Below, piece by piece: positions 1-34,978 of a stretch of 35,127 nucleotides of DNA. A model generated the notes under the pieces. That model did not search any database. It worked only from the letters and a program-made list of their open reading frames with translations, and was not told the DNA's origin. Within the stretch, counting starts at the first letter, position 1. Each line of letters starts with the position of its first letter. The position numbers and the translations under genes are program-made. Source of the DNA: an uncultured Faecalibacterium sp. (GTDB lineage Bacteria > Bacillota > Clostridia > Oscillospirales > Ruminococcaceae); contig CALWZL010000018.1 in NCBI GenBank assembly GCA_944385995.1, forward strand, positions 1-35,127, read 5' to 3'.

Positions 1-452
1 GTGTCCTCGTGATGGCCCATATAATAGACGCCGTTGGTGCCGATCATGCCCACCTTGCGGCCTGCCGCCTCCAAAACACTGCGGATCATGTGGGCGGTGG
101 TGGTCTTGCCCTTGGTGCCGGTGACGCCGATCATGGTCATCTTCCGGGAGGGATTGCCGAACAGGTTGGCGCTCATCAGGGCCATGGCGTGACGGCTGTT
201 GTCCACCTTCAGGACCGTCACCCCCTCCATCCCAGCCAGGTCGATGTCGTGCTGAATGACGATGGCCGCCGCCCCTTTGGCCGCGCAGTCGGCGGCAAAG
301 TCGTGGCTGTCCCGCTGGGTGCCCACAATGCAGACAAACAGGGTCCCGGGCCCGGCCTTCCGGCTGTCATAGACGATATCGGTGATCTCGGTGTCCATGC
401 TGCCCTGTACCAGGGTATAGGCCACTCCTTCGGTCAACGCAGATAATTTCAT
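1..452 (-). CDS. murE: UDP-MurNAc-tripeptide synthetase MurE, N-terminal part (cut by window edge)
   Basis: About 150 N-terminal residues are present; the gene continues past the left edge. MurE adds the third amino acid (diaminopimelate or lysine) to UDP-MurNAc-dipeptide in the cytoplasm. The visible part has the N-terminal Mur fold with a YDSRK segment near residues 28-32 that contacts the UDP substrate, and the ATP-binding P-loop GVTGTKGKTTT at about 109-119. The GTKGKTT form is typical of MurE; MurF here has GSVGKTT. The start ATG at 452 follows GAGGAG, which overlaps the stop region of ftsQ, so the two genes are probably translationally linked. The position is odd: murE normally lies between the PBP gene and murF. 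The amino-acid specificity motif (DNPR or similar) lies outside the window. Confidence 0.93.
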   Translation of the reverse strand, partial: MKLSALTEGVAYTLVQGSMDTEITDIVYDSRKAGPGTLFVCIVGTQRDSHDFAADCAAKGAAAIVIQHDIDLAGMEGVTVLKVDNSRHAMALMSANLFGNPSRKMTMIGVTGTKGKTTTAHMIRSVLEAAGRKVGMIGTNGVYYMGHHED

Positions 453-459
453 CACTGAT

Positions 460-1908
460 TCACTCCTCATCTGTCTGCCCCTCGGCCGGGGCGTCTGCGG
501 CCTGTTCATCGGCCTGGTTTTCCGCGGCAGGCTCTGCTGTCCCGGTGTCTGTGGTTTGGCCGGCAAGATCTGTCTCACCGGCCGGATCGGCGGGCGTTTC
601 CTCTTCCTGCTGGTCCGCCGCCGTGCCGTCCGTCTGGGCCAGATCGGTTTGGCCAGTCTCCTCCTCTGCCCCGGAGACTTTTTCAGGCGCAACGTATCCC
701 GACGGCAATTCCGGCACGCCCTGGGCAAAGATGGCCTGCAAGGTGCCGTCGGACTTGACGTGACTGCAATCCAGCTGGCCGGTATCCGTCTCGGCACAGC
801 CTTTGCCCTCCTTGTTCAGGAGCATGTATTCGGCATAGTCCAGCTTGTAATCCAGTTCGTTCAGGGTGCCCAGCAAAACGCTGATCCGGTCCTGATAGAG
901 GAAGGCAATCTGTTCCACATCGGCGTACTCGATGCGGGTCACGTCCTCCATCAATCCCCGGCTCTCCAGGGCATCCAGCAGGGTTTGCAGGGCTTCCACC
1001 CGGCCATCCTGGGCCACCACCGTTTCACTGCCGGAAGCCGTCGAATCCGCACCGTTCAGGGCCGGATCGGCCAGCTTGTAGGCCAGCTGATCGCCGGGAA
1101 CCACGCTGACCGGGTCCCCGCCGTAGAGGACGGGCAGATCGGGCTGTTCGGTCTCGGCCGTCAGAATCTTGAGACTGGCCGACAGGCTGATCCAGCCGGT
1201 GCGGGTCTTTATGGCATAGGCCGGCTCAGCGGGCGTCACCCGCACCACCACGGTACTGGGATACACCCGTTTGACCTCAATCTGTTCCAGCAGCGGGAAC
1301 GTCTTTTCCAGCATGGCGGCTTTTTCGGCGGGGTCAAAGCTGAAGATGTTTTCCTCCAGCTGAATCCCCAAAGCATCCAGAATTTCGGTGCTGGTATAGG
1401 GTCCCGCCTCGTTGACGGTGACCCCGTCGGGCCCTGACACCCGGATGGCGTTGATTTTGAACAGCATGGTGACCGTCAGGTAGATGCCTGCCGCCGCCAC
1501 GCACAGCACCAGAAACACCGCCGTCAGGCGGCGCATCATCCGGCGCCGGCGGAGCATCCGGCGGGTCACACGGCGGCGCCGGCGGCTTTCCCGCCGCGGC
1601 ACCGACTGGACCGGGCGCACCTGTGCGGGACGCCGGGTCCCGCCCTGCTGCCGGGCCGTCGATTGGGTCCGGGGGCGGCCCTGGGGACGCTGTCCCCCCT
1701 GCCGCTGGGACGGACGGGTCCGCCCCGACGGAAATTCCACCAAATTATCCTCCCGGCGAACCCGCGGGGGATGCTCATAAAAGACGCTGTCCTCTACCCG
1801 CTGACTGCTGCCAGCCGGCACTGTGGGGCGCTGTCTGGCCTGCCCCTGCGTCGAACGCTGCGGGGCGGCCTGCCCGGCCGGCCTGCGCCTGCGCTTTTTG
1901 GAAGGCAT
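460..1908 (-). CDS. ftsQ: Cell-division protein FtsQ/DivIB with long basic N-terminus and acidic C-terminal tail
   Basis: This is a bitopic membrane protein of the divisome that forms the FtsQ-FtsL-FtsB complex. The start at 1908 is chosen because AAAGGAGG lies about 9 bases upstream; an in-frame upstream extension has no such site. Of about 482 residues, 1-127 are cytoplasmic and extremely rich in Arg, Gln and Pro, with an Arg-dense run just before the membrane. One transmembrane helix spans about 129-150, followed by a POTRA domain (about 152-226) and the FtsQ beta domain. The last 75 residues or so are a low-complexity acidic tail of Glu, Asp, Ala, Thr and Gln. The protein is much longer than E. 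coli FtsQ (276 residues) because of the two disordered ends. It lies between murG and murE, which starts 7 bases after its stop. Confidence 0.9.
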   Translation of the reverse strand: MPSKKRRRRPAGQAAPQRSTQGQARQRPTVPAGSSQRVEDSVFYEHPPRVRREDNLVEFPSGRTRPSQRQGGQRPQGRPRTQSTARQQGGTRRPAQVRPVQSVPRRESRRRRRVTRRMLRRRRMMRRLTAVFLVLCVAAAGIYLTVTMLFKINAIRVSGPDGVTVNEAGPYTSTEILDALGIQLEENIFSFDPAEKAAMLEKTFPLLEQIEVKRVYPSTVVVRVTPAEPAYAIKTRTGWISLSASLKILTAETEQPDLPVLYGGDPVSVVPGDQLAYKLADPALNGADSTASGSETVVAQDGRVEALQTLLDALESRGLMEDVTRIEYADVEQIAFLYQDRISVLLGTLNELDYKLDYAEYMLLNKEGKGCAETDTGQLDCSHVKSDGTLQAIFAQGVPELPSGYVAPEKVSGAEEETGQTDLAQTDGTAADQQEEETPADPAGETDLAGQTTDTGTAEPAAENQADEQAADAPAEGQTDEE

Positions 1909-2048
1909 ACCGCTCCGCCTCCTTTCTCTTTGTTCCAGGCTCATCCCCTCACGCCATCGAGCCTCTGCACAGGCCCCGGCGCTCAAAGAGAGAGGGCCGT
2001 CCCGCCCTTTTGGCCGGGAAGCTCTCTCTTCGGATGCGCAGTGTTATC

Positions 2049-3176
2049 TTACGGTTCCCGCACCAGGTGCTGCAGCTGTGCCACAATCCGGTCCAGGCTG
2101 TCATCCACCGACAAGGTCCGGGCATTGCGCCCCATTCGGGCCAGCTTTCCTTCCTCGTCCAGCAGCTGTTCGACTTCGGCCACCAGTTTTTCACCGGTCA
2201 GGTCTTTTTCTTCGATGACCACGGCGGCGTCCACCTTGGCCAGCTCCAGGGCATTGTAATACTGATGATTCTCGGCCACGTTGGGACTGGGAATCAGGAT
2301 GGCCGCCCGTCCGGCGGCCTCCAGCTCGGCCAGGGTCAAAGCGCCGGCCCGGCTGATGACCAGGTCTGCCGCCGCCAGCAGTTCAGGCATATTGTCGATG
2401 TACTCCCGCACAATCAGGTTTTCCCCGCGGGAAAAGCCCTTTTCCTTTTCCAGGTCCTTGAACAGCTGAACGCCGTACTGGCCGGTGGCGTGGAGATGGA
2501 GAATGCTGCGGTGGTTTTTCTGTTCCCAGGCGCACAGGTCGGACACCACCTCATTGATCCGGCGGGCCCCCAGGCTGCCGCCAAAGGAGAGGATCACGGT
2601 GCGGTCCCCCGCCTTCAGTTTGGCCCGGGCCTCCTCCCGGCGCCCGGCCCAGTCAAAGACCTCGGGCCGCACCGGGTTGCCCACCACAACGGTTTTGCCG
2701 GGAGCGCCCAGACGGTCGGCGCCGGCCTGCACCGCCGCAAAGACCAGGTCCACCTCGGGGGCCAGCAGTTTGTTGGTGACCCCGGGGAAGGCGTTCTGTT
2801 CATGGATGGCGGTCTTGATGCCCCGCTTGGCGGCGGCCCGGACCACCGGGCCCGACACATAGCCGCCGCAGCCGATCACCAGATCGGGCTGCACCTCGTT
2901 CAGGATGGCCTTGCAGCGGGGTCCCGAGCGGGCCAGATTCCAGACGGTGATGAGATTGCGCCGCAGATTTTCGAGGGACGGCCGCCGCTGGAAGCCGGTC
3001 ACCTCGATGTGATGGAAGGGATAGCCGGCCTGGGTCACCAGACGGTATTCCATTCCCTCTTTCCGCCCCGCAAAGTGGATTTCGGCGGAAGGGTCCGCCG
3101 CCCGCAATGCCCCCGCAATCGCGAGAGCCGGATTGATATGGCCGGCGGTGCCGCCGGCTGCGATCAGTACGCGCAT
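2049..3176 (-). CDS. murG: UDP-GlcNAc:undecaprenyl-PP-MurNAc-pentapeptide GlcNAc transferase MurG
   Basis: MurG makes lipid II from lipid I on the inner face of the membrane. The 375-residue protein has the two-Rossmann GT-B layout. The N-terminal glycine loop GGTAGHINPA lies at about 8-17, a second glycine-rich segment (FGGSLGARRIN) in the middle, and the UDP-GlcNAc-binding segment around SRAGALTLAE plus PSPNVAENHQ in the C-terminal half. Length is normal for the family (about 355-370). The ATG at 3176 has AGGAGG 8 bases upstream. A perfect 6-bp dyad (GTCCGG / CCGGAC) sits immediately before that ribosome site. The gene lies 99 bases after ftsW, a wide gap for this cluster. Confidence 0.96.
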   Translation of the reverse strand: MRVLIAAGGTAGHINPALAIAGALRAADPSAEIHFAGRKEGMEYRLVTQAGYPFHHIEVTGFQRRPSLENLRRNLITVWNLARSGPRCKAILNEVQPDLVIGCGGYVSGPVVRAAAKRGIKTAIHEQNAFPGVTNKLLAPEVDLVFAAVQAGADRLGAPGKTVVVGNPVRPEVFDWAGRREEARAKLKAGDRTVILSFGGSLGARRINEVVSDLCAWEQKNHRSILHLHATGQYGVQLFKDLEKEKGFSRGENLIVREYIDNMPELLAAADLVISRAGALTLAELEAAGRAAILIPSPNVAENHQYYNALELAKVDAAVVIEEKDLTGEKLVAEVEQLLDEEGKLARMGRNARTLSVDDSLDRIVAQLQHLVREP

Positions 3177-3190
3177 ACCAGATTCCTCCT

Positions 3191-3248
3191 GTCCGGACCA
3201 GCCGGACTCTTTCCCAACAAAATCCCATCCGCCGGTCTGACGGACGGG
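3191..3248 (-). other. Structured spacer between ftsW and murG
   Basis: Read on the minus strand, an 8-bp stem (3241-3248 with 3224-3231, one G-U pair) is followed by a T-rich ATTTTGTT stretch, resembling a weak intrinsic terminator. Next comes a perfect 6-bp hairpin directly upstream of the murG ribosome site. Together they could lower or condition murG expression relative to ftsW. This is inference from sequence only; the T-tract is interrupted, so full termination is unlikely. Confidence 0.3.
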
Positions 3249-3275
3249 AAAGACAGCAGGATGTTCTGCCGGGCC

Positions 3276-4601
3276 TCACAGCCCGGCCTGGGGACCAGTG
3301 GGGGTCCGGCGCACACGGTTGAGAACAATGGGCGTCCGGGCCGTCTCCTTCCGCATTTTTTCCGCCTGGGCGGCGTGGCGGGCTTCCGCAGCCCGGGCGC
3401 CGTTGCGGCCGATGTGGATGATAACCCCCATCTCCGCCATCAGGAGCAGCAGACTGGTGCCGCCCGAGGAGAAGAAGGGCAGGCTGATGCCGGTGTTGGG
3501 CAGGGTGTTGGTGACAACGGCCACATTGCAGAAAACCTGCCACCCAACCTGAGCCATGATGCCCACACCCACCAGGGTGCTGAACCGGTCGGCGGCCTGG
3601 AATGCAATCAGGAATCCCTGGACCAGCAGGAGCACAAAGAGCAGGATGACCACCACGGCCCCCACAAAGCCCAGTTCCTCACAGACCACGCTGAAGATGA
3701 AGTCGTTGGTGCACTCGGGCAGCCACAGCTGTTTTTCCACGCTGTTGCCCAGACCCAGGCCGGTGAGGCCGCCCGAACCGATGGCATACAGACTCTGCAA
3801 AGTCTGATCGGTCATCTTGCTCAGGTCCTGGGTCCAGCCATCCAGACGGTCCTGCAGGTAGGGGATGGCGTCGATGTGGGACAGGACGGTTTTCAGCAGC
3901 AGGATGGCCGCCGCGGCGCCGCCGTAGGTAATGACGCCGCCGCTGCCGTTGAGCAGAAGAATGCTGCCCACAATGGCGCACATCAGGACGATGCCGGACA
4001 TATGGGGTTCCAGGGCCAGCAGCGCCACCACCGGCACCAGGGGCAGCAGGGGGACCATCAGTTCCCGCACCACCTTTTGGAACAGCCAGCGGCCGAAATT
4101 GCCGGCGGTCCGGCGGGCGCCGGGCTCTCCCTCCAGCACCAGATGGGGGGTACGGCTGGCCAGATGGGCGGTCAGCAGAATCATCTCAAACTTGACCAGC
4201 TCGGAAGCCTGCAGGGTGGGCAGACCGCGGATGTTGATCCAGCGTCGGCAGCCGTTGAGGGGTTCGCAGAACAGGACTGCCACCAGCAGCAGCAGGCTGA
4301 CGATGTAGCCGGCCCAGACGAATTTGCGGATGAACCGCAAATCGAAATAGGAGAAGAGGAACATCACCCCCACCCCCATCAGGGCGTAGATGGTCTGGGA
4401 CTTGATGTAATAGTAACTGTCCCCCATCCGCAGGTAGCCGGTGGTATAGCTGGCACTGAACAGCATCACCAGTCCAAAAATCACGATCAGTGCAAGGGTT
4501 GCGAGCCAGCTGATGGTCAGCGGCGTCCACGGCCCCGGGTTGCGCTGAAACACCACCACCGGCCCGTTGGGGTCGGGGCGTCTCCTTCTAGCAACGGCCA
4601 T
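3276..4601 (-). CDS. ftsW: Septal peptidoglycan polymerase FtsW (SEDS family)
   Basis: FtsW polymerises lipid II into glycan strands at the septum together with a class B PBP. The start at 4601 (441 residues) is preferred over a longer in-frame extension because it has an AAGGTG ribosome site and follows the mraY-like stop by 29 bases. A basic Pro-rich N-terminus is followed by about ten hydrophobic helices. SEDS hallmarks are clear: NDFIFSVVCEELGF, containing the conserved loop aspartate of the family, and the C-terminal PNTGISLPFFSSGGTS segment. Roughly 50 charged residues follow the last helix. FtsW rather than RodA is inferred from the dcw setting and the PBP partner encoded upstream. Confidence 0.94.
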   Translation of the reverse strand: MAVARRRRPDPNGPVVVFQRNPGPWTPLTISWLATLALIVIFGLVMLFSASYTTGYLRMGDSYYYIKSQTIYALMGVGVMFLFSYFDLRFIRKFVWAGYIVSLLLLVAVLFCEPLNGCRRWINIRGLPTLQASELVKFEMILLTAHLASRTPHLVLEGEPGARRTAGNFGRWLFQKVVRELMVPLLPLVPVVALLALEPHMSGIVLMCAIVGSILLLNGSGGVITYGGAAAAILLLKTVLSHIDAIPYLQDRLDGWTQDLSKMTDQTLQSLYAIGSGGLTGLGLGNSVEKQLWLPECTNDFIFSVVCEELGFVGAVVVILLFVLLLVQGFLIAFQAADRFSTLVGVGIMAQVGWQVFCNVAVVTNTLPNTGISLPFFSSGGTSLLLLMAEMGVIIHIGRNGARAAEARHAAQAEKMRKETARTPIVLNRVRRTPTGPQAGL

Positions 4602-27868: not shown

Positions 27869-27916
27869 TCCCCTTGCACTTGGCCGGATTTACGGCCCGT
27901 TTCTGCGGGTGTTTGC

Positions 27917-28158
27917 CTGCTTCTTCTCTAAAAAACAGGAGTTTGCATCGTACCGCGCCGCAGGCGCAAACGCCGGGAGCGAGCTAAGGCGTAAAGGCCG
28001 GAAAATCAGGCAGCGCATAACGCCGGACTCACAGGGCCGCAGGCCGGGAGCCTGATAAAGCGGCTGAAACCTGACCGCCGGCAGGGCCTTGTGAGGACCA
28101 CAGCAGTCGGCGGTACACAGTGAACGTCTTTTGCTTACTTTTCTTCCAGAAAAGTAAG
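27917..28158 (+). repeat. Structured intergenic repeat, short copy
   Basis: The segment 28025-28116 matches 34843-34934 at 85 of 92 positions with no gaps by direct comparison. It ends in a perfect 11-bp hairpin (28134-28144 with 28148-28158), the equivalent of the right arm of the long copy. The left limit is set by a degenerate CCTG...CAGG hairpin near 27917-27940 followed by GCATCGTACC, resembling the left arm of the long copy, and is uncertain. An inner GCGCC-gca-GGCGC hairpin is also present. Confidence 0.7.
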
Positions 28159-28162
28159 GCGG

Positions 28163-29368
28163 TCAGGTGCGTTCGGCCACCAGCTGGAAACCGGCCTTGG
28201 CCAGCTCGGTGCGAATCTGTTCGATCTGGGCTTCGTCGCGGGTCTCCATGCCCAGCTTGAGGAAACAGCTGGAAATGGGCATGTCGGGGTCGGAACCGTC
28301 GTACTGGACCGACACCACGTTGCCGCCGCAGTCGGCCACAATCTGGGATACCTTGGTGAGCTGGCCCGGCTTGTCCTCCAGCGCGATGGTCAGATTGGAC
28401 TTCCGGCCGCTCATGATGAGGCCGCGGGTGATGACGCGGCTCAGGATGTTGACATCGATGTTGCCGCCCGACACCACGCAGACCACCTTTTTGCCCTGGA
28501 TGGGCAGCTTGTGGAAGAGGGCTGCCGCCACAGGCACCGCGCCGGCGCCCTCGGCCACCAGCTTCTGATTTTCCATCAGGGACAGGATGGCCGCGGCGAT
28601 TTCGTCCTCGCTGACGGTGACCATCTCGTCCACATACTTTTCGCACATCTCATAGGTCAGCTCGCCGGGGGTCTTGACCTGGATGCCGTCCGCAAAGGTG
28701 GAAGCGGTGTCCAGGGTCCGGTAACAATGCTCCTTCATGGACATATACATGCTGGGCGCACCCGCCGCCTGGACGCCGTAGACCTTGACATCCGGCCGCA
28801 GGGACTTGATGGTAAAGGCAATGCCGGCAATCAGGCCGCCGCCGCCCACCGGCACAATCACGGCGTCCAGATCGGGCAGCTGATCCAGGATTTCCAGACC
28901 GATGGTGCCCTGGCCTGCAATCACCAGTTCATCGTCGTAGGGATGGATGAAGGTCATCCCGGTTTCGGCCTGGAGCTCGACGGCCTTGTCGTGGGCGTCG
29001 TCGTAGGTGCCCGGCACCAGACAGACTTCGGCGCCCAGATTCTTGGTATTTTCCACCTTCATGATGGGGGCGCCGTCCGGCATGCAGACAATGCTTTTGA
29101 TCCCCCGGCGGGTGGCAGCCAGGGCCACACCCTGGGCGTGGTTGCCCGCCGAACAGGCGATGACGCCCCGGCTCCGCTCTTCTTCCGAGAGCTGGCTGAT
29201 CTTGTAGTAGGCGCCCCGCACCTTGAAACTGCCGGTCACCTGGAGGTTTTCGGTCTTGAGGTAGAGGCGGCAGTCCCGGGACAGCAGCGGCGCCTCGATC
29301 AAGTCGGTGCGGCGTGCGATCTCTTTCAGGACAAAGGCGGCGTGATAGATTTTATCCAGTGTAAGCAT
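28163..29368 (-). CDS. ilvA: Threonine ammonia-lyase IlvA with ACT domain
   Basis: This enzyme converts threonine to 2-oxobutanoate and ammonia, either for isoleucine synthesis or catabolism. The 401-residue fold-type II PLP protein has the cofactor lysine K49 in TGSFKVRGAYYK, CSAGNHAQGVA, the VGGGGLIAG phosphate loop, and a C-terminal ACT domain (about 325-401, starting near NLTIALEDKPGQL). It matches the medium-length single-ACT form rather than the 514-residue biosynthetic E. coli enzyme. The start at 29368 is preferred (GGGAGAGG 4-5 bases upstream, conserved MLTLDKIYHAA). An ATG at 29410 preceded directly by AAGGAG could give a 14-residue extension. The gene lies between the leu operon and ridA, all on one strand. 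Confidence 0.94.
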   Translation of the reverse strand: MLTLDKIYHAAFVLKEIARRTDLIEAPLLSRDCRLYLKTENLQVTGSFKVRGAYYKISQLSEEERSRGVIACSAGNHAQGVALAATRRGIKSIVCMPDGAPIMKVENTKNLGAEVCLVPGTYDDAHDKAVELQAETGMTFIHPYDDELVIAGQGTIGLEILDQLPDLDAVIVPVGGGGLIAGIAFTIKSLRPDVKVYGVQAAGAPSMYMSMKEHCYRTLDTASTFADGIQVKTPGELTYEMCEKYVDEMVTVSEDEIAAAILSLMENQKLVAEGAGAVPVAAALFHKLPIQGKKVVCVVSGGNIDVNILSRVITRGLIMSGRKSNLTIALEDKPGQLTKVSQIVADCGGNVVSVQYDGSDPDMPISSCFLKLGMETRDEAQIEQIRTELAKAGFQLVAERT

Positions 29369-29442
29369 AATCCCTCTCCCAATAAAATACAGGGCCGAGC
29401 CGCCCTGCATCTCCTTATGTGTAACAAATTCTGATAGACACC

Positions 29443-34209: not shown

Positions 34210-34257
34210 AAAAAGGCTCTCGTCTCTCAGGGGCGAAAGCCCTGAGAGACGAGAGCC
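34210..34257 (-). terminator. Regulatory terminator of the leu T-box leader
   Basis: A perfect 18-bp stem (34215-34232 with 34240-34257) is followed on the minus strand by TTTTT (34214-34210). Its 5' arm contains CGTCTCT, which can instead pair with the AGAG and ACG parts of the T-box motif to form the antiterminator. Confidence 0.95.
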
Positions 34258-34532
34258 TGTAAATTCTATTACAAGGCGGCCCGTGGTACCACTCTCTTTG
34301 CCGCAAATGATGCGGCCGCTCACACGATCAGCCAGCCTGAAACAGCGGCGAATCGCTGCCCCCGTAACGGTGGGCATCCGTCAGAACCTACTGGGAAATG
34401 ACCGTTGGGCTCTGCTGCTCAGGGGCCAGTAGCCAGAAGCTCCCGCGCCGCCTTACACCACCCGGCGGCTCTCTGCAAGCGGAACATCTTCCGATTTTTC
34501 CCCGTCAGCGCATTTGCTTGTTTGCTAACATT
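34210..34532 (-). promoter_or_regulatory. T-box leader controlling leuACDB
   Basis: The minus-strand leader of about 320 bases has the T-box features in order. These are an AGAGAGCC...GGGTGGTG Stem I segment (about 34474-34451), middle stems, the T-box motif AGAGTGGTACCACGGG (about 34294-34279) and the terminator. The TGGT in the T-box pairs with an ACCA tRNA end, as expected for tRNA-Leu. A candidate specifier codon is CTG at 34429-34427, placed before CCCCTGAGC; this assignment is tentative. Uncharged tRNA-Leu should stabilise the antiterminator and switch on leucine synthesis. Confidence 0.92.
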
Positions 34533-34538
34533 GCGCTT

Positions 34539-34567
34539 ATTTTATCACGCTGCGCCCCTAAAGTCAA
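34539..34567 (-). promoter_or_regulatory. Promoter of the T-box-leuACDB operon
   Basis: TTGACT (34562-34567) and TAAAAT (34539-34544) are separated by exactly 17 bases. Transcription should begin near 34532. The -35 hexamer abuts the edge of the long repeat element. Confidence 0.87.
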
Positions 34568-34978
34568 CCCCCTACTTTTTCAGAGAAAAAGTAGGCAAAA
34601 AGCTTTTTACTGGGTACCATACACCCTGGCCGCTCTTTTGGACGTTTGTGGGAGTTGCAGACTGTGCCGCGCTCACGGTACGTCCGGGCTGCGCCCGGGT
34701 ACGATGCACACTTCGTCATAGCCTGGTTTCCCGCCCGGTACGACTCCGGCTCCTTTCCGGCGTCTGGACCTTGCAAATTTTTGCAGCGCGGTACCATGCA
34801 AGCCCCCGGGAGCCCACAGAAAACCAAACTGCGCAAGCCTTTGGACTCACAGGGCCGCAGGCCGGGAGCCTTATAAAGAGGCTGGAAGCTGACCGCCGGC
34901 AGGGCTTTGTGAGGACCGCAGCAGTCAGCGGTACCAGGTAAAGCTTTTTGCCAAGCTTTTTCACGAAAAAGCGGGGGG
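34568..34978. repeat. Structured intergenic repeat element with terminal inverted repeats, long copy
   Basis: The two ends are inverted relatives over about 48 bases. The left end reads CCCCCTACTTTTTC, then GAAAAAGTAGG, CAAAAAGC and TACTGGGTACC. The right end, read inward on the other strand, is CCCCCCGCTTTTTC, GAAAAAGC, GGCAAAAAGC and TACCTGGTACC. Each end is a hairpin: left 34571-34581 with 34585-34595 (11 bp), right 34955-34962 with 34965-34972 (8 bp). The interior has GC-rich hairpins such as CCGGGC-tgc-GCCCGG near 34684-34698, several GGTAC(G/C)ATGCA-like words, and the core shared with 28025-28116. It encodes no credible protein. It resembles a MITE or REP-type element. No target-site duplication is obvious. 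Confidence 0.72.

Follow-up and report, generated by a model that had tools for sequence, protein, structure and literature searches.

The DNA analysed here (the window, 35,127 nt) belongs to a draft Faecalibacterium genome of 2.25 Mb in 114 contigs, 88% complete (G000). On its minus strand, the leu promoter precedes a T-box leader (RF00230, 97.5 bits, 34242-34517, minus strand) and then the leuA gene. A sequence-only reading of the window had proposed that a discrete element of about 411 bp lies next to this promoter, that its inverted ends each fold into a hairpin of their own, that the interval as a whole is structured, and that one edge stops exactly at the leu -35 box. This description holds. 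The -35 hexamer TTGACT (34567-34562, minus strand) directly adjoins the interval. The outward-facing inverted ends (34568-34606 and 34940-34978) are 39 nt long and 77% complementary, and blastn of the two ends of the interval against each other returns a match of 81% over 51/49 nt (E 7.9e-4). Each end has its own hairpin, at 34571-34595 on the left and, on the minus strand, with a stem core at 34972-34955 on the right, as read by eye. The folding of 34568-34978 beats 100 of 100 shuffles on either strand (z -5.5 and -6.0). An Rfam 15 scan of the interval gave no match up to E 1, the neighbouring T-box being the sole Rfam match.

The interval and its ends are thus real, but they do not form the repeating unit. 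Searched against its own genome, the 411 bp gave 33 blastn matches; besides itself, none spans the interval, and the matches are confined to the left ~169 nt or to ~276-411 of the query. The repeating unit is a module, which consists of a head of ~48 nt and a GC-rich body; in its layout, an A/T-rich head of ~40 nt is followed by a GC-rich body of ~110 nt. The 411 bp is a one-off composite, in which two inverted module copies stand back to back with their heads outward (Table 1). Of the expectation that many copies with the same boundaries would be found, the dispersal was borne out, with 27 heads in the genome of the window, but no second full-span copy was found there.

Table 1. Features of the composite interval and of the second module copy in the window (CM, covariance model; Y, pyrimidine; R, purine).
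Feature	Position	Strand	Basis
Composite: two outward-facing module copies and ~90 nt between them	34568..34978	.	blastn matches, inverted ends
Left head (hairpin, purine tract, T-run, GGTACC)	34570..34618	+	CM E 4.5e-13
Y tract TTTTTC, strand 1 of putative triplex	34576..34581	+	read from sequence, triad parsing scheme
R tract GAAAAA, strand 2, Watson-Crick partner	34585..34590	+	read from sequence, triad parsing scheme
Second R tract AAAAAG, strand 3, mirror of strand 2	34597..34602	+	sequence, triad parsing scheme
GC-rich body of left module	34619..34729	+	relatives' matches stop at query ~162
Middle stretch separating the module copies	34730..34818	.	between two blocks of matches
GC-rich body of right module	34819..34929	-	relatives' matches start at query ~252
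Right head	34930..34976	-	CM E 1.8e-5
leu promoter (-35 TTGACT, -10 TAAAAT), touched by left edge	34539..34567	-	
Second head in window, 3 nt after stop of PALP-domain gene (28163-29410, minus)	28112..28159	-	CM match
blastn-matched stretch of second copy, 88% to query 276-384 (minus-strand module)	28025..28134	-	

The gene before the second window copy (28025-28159), which carries the PALP domain, is threonine-dehydratase-like, and a further weak head match lies at 27912-27939 (E 0.07).

To follow the module in other genomes, a covariance model was built from one end of the interval. Its 11 seed heads have tract types TTTTTC and TTTTCT, which the model may favour. It found at least 27 heads at E<1e-4 in the window's genome; heads at E<=0.01 occur in 14 of 31 genomes of the genus, and the other 17 have none. 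The copy counts are lower bounds, since 150 of ~1,000-3,700 candidates were scored per genome and 24 in the family search. Four genomes are rich carriers: G017 (76 head matches), G022 (49), G023 (44) and G000 (29). They are followed by G006 and G019 (17 each), G010 (10), G026 (5), G025 (3) and G007 (2), and four more genomes of the genus have one head match each at E<=0.01. Of 247 genomes sampled across the wider family, 9 have a match at E<=1e-4: two belong to the genus, and each of the remaining seven to a different other genus. An exact-pattern search, from which near relatives of the window's genome may be omitted, returned only Faecalibacterium sp. An122, a cultured isolate, and a Faecalibacterium MAG from chicken.

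Some heads are partial, doubled or nested in other heads. Tandem arrays of partial modules are found at G017:C2:28850-29779 (L106) and G000:C54:8674-9053 (L022, L078), with spacings of ~157 and 110 nt. Another structured repeat, starting with GGCAGC, lies inside or directly after the heads of L084, L105, L304, L171 and L077, giving nested repeats. For the analyses below, 51 of the 76 head matches of G017, 38 of the 49 of G022 and 36 of the 44 of G023 were fetched. From 180 head matches found, 165 were kept; the 15 dropped were six repeated sites (overlapping loci), two cut by contig ends and seven weak matches, two of the latter antisense to a retained head. The tract analyses used 195 heads, that is, the 165 and 30 weaker or more distant ones (22 from 30 weaker loci and 8 from loci outside the genus), fewer of which lie at stop codons.

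A frequent address of the module is the end of a gene. Heads had been chosen blind to gene context, with flanks from G000, G017, G022, G023, G025 and G007, and 161 of the 165 entered the count. Of these, 67 abut the stop codon (0-3 nt) of a frame of at least 150 codons, 54 with zero gap. In another 30 the stop codon falls within the hairpin (3' arm 19, apex 8, elsewhere inside 3), and in one it lies 53 nt into the head. The stop codon precedes the matched head start by 3-17 nt in 14 heads and by 18-60 nt in 10. When the reference point was shifted by -400 to +300 nt, 0 or 1 abutting cases per 152-160 were obtained. Because stop codons fall at or inside heads, several unrelated proteins share C-terminal tags encoded by the repeat, such as -YFFEKK, -YFSEEK, -LLF and -LTFLEEK. 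Two facts stand against the reading favoured below: 39 of the 161 heads have no end of such a frame within 60 nt, and in the window itself the composite stands beside a promoter instead of a gene end, which is unusual for the module. By eye, some heads without a neighbouring stop codon adjoin promoter-like boxes as the window copy does (L068, L147, L201, L013, L078).

Behind the head, the gene-end module usually continues towards a terminator. In 97 heads with the stop codon between 17 nt before and 26 nt inside the head, and with at least 600 nt of downstream sequence available, none of the heads scores as an intrinsic terminator itself. In 73 of the 97, a terminator-like site distinct from the head lies within the next 700 nt (median start 204 nt); the same holds for 8 of 97 coding stretches. 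Because stop-adjacent modules mostly stand before a terminator, they are probably transcribed. In other genomes, the median distance to the start of the first terminator-like site is 14 nt for prfC (11 of 25 loci) and 20 nt for the pyrimidine nucleoside phosphorylase gene (18 of 22); in the carriers, four of the eight loci of the two genes have such a site, at 80, 239, 338 and 416 nt. One recurrent terminator type stands behind 71 of 98 heads, as against 14 of 132 other terminators at the same loci, 13 of 63 near an opposite-strand head and 5 of 172 in other genomes; the motif was defined after viewing examples that belong to the counted set. In the window copy, the single terminator-like site is weak and does not belong to the recurrent type. 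The bodies fall into four main sequence types (54, 41, 31 and 17 of 165). For a body hairpin resembling GGGCTGCGCCC, covariation is clear in the 31-member type (pair 114-124: GC 15, CG 8, TA 7) and poor in the largest.

Comparison of orthologous sites reveals places with and without the module, as the earlier reading had anticipated. Here, the "other genomes" for prfC, the phosphorylase and the terminator counts include genomes with 1-17 weak head matches elsewhere. A head directly follows the stop codon of prfC (Pfam RF3_C) in all four rich carriers, whereas none is present in 25 of 25 loci read in other genomes, where the end of the protein is at nearly the same position. The pyrimidine nucleoside phosphorylase ends in -VSYFSEEK or -VSYFFEKK in the four carriers and elsewhere mostly in -DGVERY, -DGVERF or -DGVQRF, with the module absent from all 22 readable other-genome loci (of 25). 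In the four carriers, the region upstream of leuA has a head that adjoins the -35 box or lies within ~20 nt of it, and the distance from a conserved box to the leu -35 is 61 nt in G001 against 413 in G000. At G022:C27:37624-39208 the leuA match comes in two pieces (query 1-360 and 381-549), which reflects either an assembly error or a broken gene.

Heads stand at the same place in 86 orthologous site pairs (upstream identity 79-96%), which were picked via aligned upstream sequence, so that a few are at promoters. The bodies at these sites have largely been exchanged: their median identity is 0.576, compared with a background of 0.557 for random copies, and only 10 of the 86 exceed 0.75. Heads at a site common to another genome number 17 of 26 in G000, 21 of 59 in G017, 30 of 40 in G022 and 29 of 36 in G023, all of them minimum counts, because the fetched heads were a subset. 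Recurring as they do, those 17 G000 heads give no sign of recent movement.

What is kept at these sites is the place of the head, and the compensatory changes that the earlier reading had named as a check are found in the heads. In a first model-fitted alignment, 98.8% of hairpin cells pair, 108 cells have changed on both sides (25 in shuffles) and 8 on one side; in a second, 98.3% pair, with 95 two-sided (25 in shuffles) and 1 one-sided. Both alignments were fitted to the structure, which biases them in its favour. The coupling extends beyond the hairpin. The head has the strand order pyrimidine tract, purine tract, purine tract (Y-R-R), and the second purine tract, which follows the hairpin, is a mirror image of the purine arm; the combinations are TTTTTC/AAAAAG, TTTTCT/AAAAGA, TTTTTT/AAAAAA, TTTTTCTT/AAAAAGAA, TTTCTT/AAAGAA and TTTTTCTC/AAAAAGAG. 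When pyrimidine arm, purine arm and third tract are read together as triads, 192 of 195 heads can be parsed (191 of 195 in the tract-agreement parse), and 1151 of 1163 triads are concordant (T-A-A 990, C-G-G 161, discordant 12). The covariance model has no pairing between the tracts and the core and therefore cannot create this coupling. Among 82 distinct heads, 73 are concordant throughout and 9 are discordant; at positions 4 and beyond, 240 of 251 triads are concordant, compared with 154.5 (sd 7.2, max 177) when the third tract is shuffled, a comparison that is not a probability because shuffling disregards relatedness. Weaker heads of G006, G010 and G019 (L278, L282, L286, L275, L280 and others) keep the tract coupling; in place of the body they carry another short hairpin, and they seldom lie at stop codons.

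The tract types also change at orthologous sites. More than one tract class occurs in 29 of 39 orthologous site groups, and of 56 orthologous pairs that differ in tract, 50 show three-strand concordance in each of the two members. In five orthologous pairs, all three head strands differ and the bodies are still 79-97% identical. Such class switches could arise if other copies converted entire heads, but this would not account for the original concordance of each type.

These regularities are those expected of a class II intrastrand triplex. Under the ITxF rules, the Y-R-R order with compatible T-A-A and C-G-G triads is found in 192 heads (the 1151 of 1163 triads above), tracts of at least 6 nt, for a stem of 6-15 nt, in 182 of 192, and a loop 1 of at most 6 nt, for loops of 1-6 nt, in 191 of 192; loop 2 measures 5-6 nt in 157 heads and 7 nt in 35. 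A minority of heads, including by eye the right-hand head of the window, therefore lie outside the loop rule. Another result does not fit as well. The third tract agrees with the parallel complement of the 5' arm over a mean of 7.7 nt, with the mirror of the 3' arm over 5.9 and with a direct copy of the 3' arm over 5.6; for 99 distinct heads the values are 5.85 against 4.69 shuffled for the mirror and 7.48 against 5.11 for the parallel complement, the shuffles covering these two. A direct repeat, considered as the explanation for the third tract, was set aside. Agreement with the 5' arm is longer because the match extends into the apex, and this extra apex agreement (7.7 versus 5.9) is neither required nor explained by a triplex. 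The outer stem CCTAC/GTAGG also covaries. Some of its bases also belong to loop 2, so that the head may adopt the hairpin or the triplex as alternatives.

From these patterns we tentatively propose a natural DNA triplex that is under selection in living bacteria. Its T-A-A/C-G-G co-evolution would extend over at least six tract sequences, and it would head a gene-end module (stop codon, head, body, terminator) that has been placed at dozens of sites and kept there as bodies turn over; this is a plausible reading to which we give clearly less than even chances. As to how the modules came to lie where they do, we infer, at close to even odds, that triplex-headed gene-end modules spread and were swapped through template switching, and that in the interval two inverted copies have been fused. 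In this scheme, a head on the coding strand, exposed as a single strand during replication or transcription, would fold into its hairpin or into a class II (Y-R-R) intrastrand triplex and stall the replication fork. The stalled 3' end could then switch template to another head, whereby modules would be copied between gene ends and their bodies swapped. An insertion directly behind a stop codon would survive because it spares the reading frame and termination. At leu, the place that in G001 is filled by a 61-nt spacer, separating the leu promoter from the region upstream of the neighbouring gene, is taken by two modules. The scarcity of one-sided hairpin changes would agree with fork stalling and template switching. 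Against template switching, it must be said that switching alone does not explain a gap of exactly 0 nt.

The first rival holds that the module is a REP/BIME-like repeat moved in trans by a dedicated transposase, a RAYT or another, whose target is the stop codon or the short gap before the terminator. That a REP-type dispersed repeat is present, as one option of the sequence-only reading had it, is supported by the heads in 14 of 31 genomes, the compensatory changes and the relatives' sites without the module. A trans-acting mover would also account for the hairpin, the intergenic mosaic with its tandem and inverted arrays, the nesting of heads in heads and the precise edge at the stop codon. 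The claim of a distant transposase fared less well. Y1_Tnp, the only transposase family searched, has 0 matches in G000, G022 and G023 (draft genomes, 87.7-92% complete, with 29-49 head matches), and G017 has one partial match with a stop; conversely, genomes with full-length Y1_Tnp such as G014, G027 and G029 have no head match. A RAYT as mover was set aside since Y1_Tnp is undetected in three of the four rich carriers. Retro-mobility was set aside likewise, the reverse transcriptase domain RVT_1 being undetected in G000, G022 and G023. We consider movement by a dedicated transposase rather unlikely. Template switching is favoured because it needs no dedicated enzyme, neither Y1_Tnp nor RVT_1 being detected in those three genomes, and because it explains mosaic bodies at fixed places. 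A search for a phage or plasmid origin gave no match, in a collection from which records close to the window's genome may be omitted.

A second rival places the function in RNA: a hairpin behind the stop codon would stall or recycle the terminating ribosome, or protect the 3' end of the mRNA, and its position would be under selection for expression. Position at stop codons and compensatory changes are what such a device predicts, and the terminator-like site lies far downstream (after 73 of 97 heads, median 204 nt, against 14 nt for prfC and 20 nt for the phosphorylase elsewhere). There is also a precedent, in that REPs of E. coli located no more than 15 nt from a stop codon reportedly stall ribosomes (PMC12306157, in a passage citing Liang 2015), and a ribosome-stalling REP would by this analogy be the main functional rival. 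Yet an RNA hairpin leaves the coupling of the third tract unexplained, one-sided changes between standard pairs are rare (8 against 108 and 1 against 95 two-sided cells), and non-standard pairs in 62 distinct hairpins (TG+GT 6, CA+AC 14) do not favour the mRNA strand. Three-strand covariation together with the rarity of one-sided changes would point at least as much to a DNA structure as to RNA. As for the earlier suggestion of a structured RNA module, known RNA families were rejected, since the window and seven loci gave no Rfam 15 match at or above the gathering score other than the neighbouring T-box. We regard an RNA device as unlikely.

The third rival, a 411-bp MITE or transposon with terminal inverted repeats, would explain the inverted ends and the relatives' sites without the element, but it is highly improbable: no other own-genome match spans the interval, no target duplication is visible in its flanks, and bodies differ at orthologous sites. 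A 1.8-kb segment flanked by heads (L132) was considered as the carrier of a mobile gene and rejected, as by eye it has only a lipoprotein-like frame and no recognised transposase. Finally, that the heads are ordinary intrinsic terminators, alike because they are short and A/T-rich, agrees with their location after genes but is scarcely credible when 0 of 97 score as such, a separate downstream site is found in 73 of 97 (8 of 97 coding stretches) and the similarity extends through core and body.

The proposed triplex-headed module is of interest in several respects. RNA helices were established by evolutionary evidence of this kind, in which strands change in a coordinated way. Here all three strands do so, the module frequently occupies a fixed address (the stop codon), there are module-free sites, and one relative has a name, Faecalibacterium sp. 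An122. How bacterial 3' UTRs originate and change is a further matter on which a repeated module at gene ends would bear. Among the matches listed from the open-access literature, there is no description of these Faecalibacterium repeats, of REP-terminator combinations or of triplex covariation.

Several known systems resemble the module in part. MITEs (ERIC, Correia and similar) are small and non-coding and have inverted ends. The window copy shares these traits, but the module has one head per unit and no fixed second end, and no target duplication is seen at the window copy. RAYT-linked REPs follow GTAG tag and foot rules. Like REP/BIME elements, the module consists of short palindromes between genes, in tandem and inverted mosaics and often near stop codons, and it is palindromic, extragenic, present in many copies and arranged in mosaic arrays, as the REP definition has it. 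It differs from RAYT-linked REPs in its three-tract head and in that the Y1 domain is undetected in three rich carriers.

The closest likeness is to the class II intrastrand triplex motifs PIT, Box C and TM_ECO, which formed triplexes in vitro (Holder et al. 2015, PMC4666352). In vivo footprinting of TM_ECO gave no triplex signal (PMC4666352), a result that weighs against a triplex in the head. The same study describes raised intergenic change around triplex-motif loci, similar to that observed here, and the motifs were not found with mobile elements. The term "stop codon" occurs 0 times in its main text, and the sections consulted mention neither three-strand covariation nor stop-codon anchoring. 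As described there, these motifs and the head are alike in having Y-R-R tracts on one strand, stems of at least 6 nt and short loops, and in being repeated and intergenic. The TM_ECO consensus, CCCTCNCCC...GGGNGAGGG, is G/C-rich, whereas the tracts of the head are T/A-rich and do not conform to it. Unlike TM_ECO as presented in that paper, the head has a covarying outer stem, a frequent anchor at the stop codon, a body often followed by a recurrent terminator, and co-variation across three strands.
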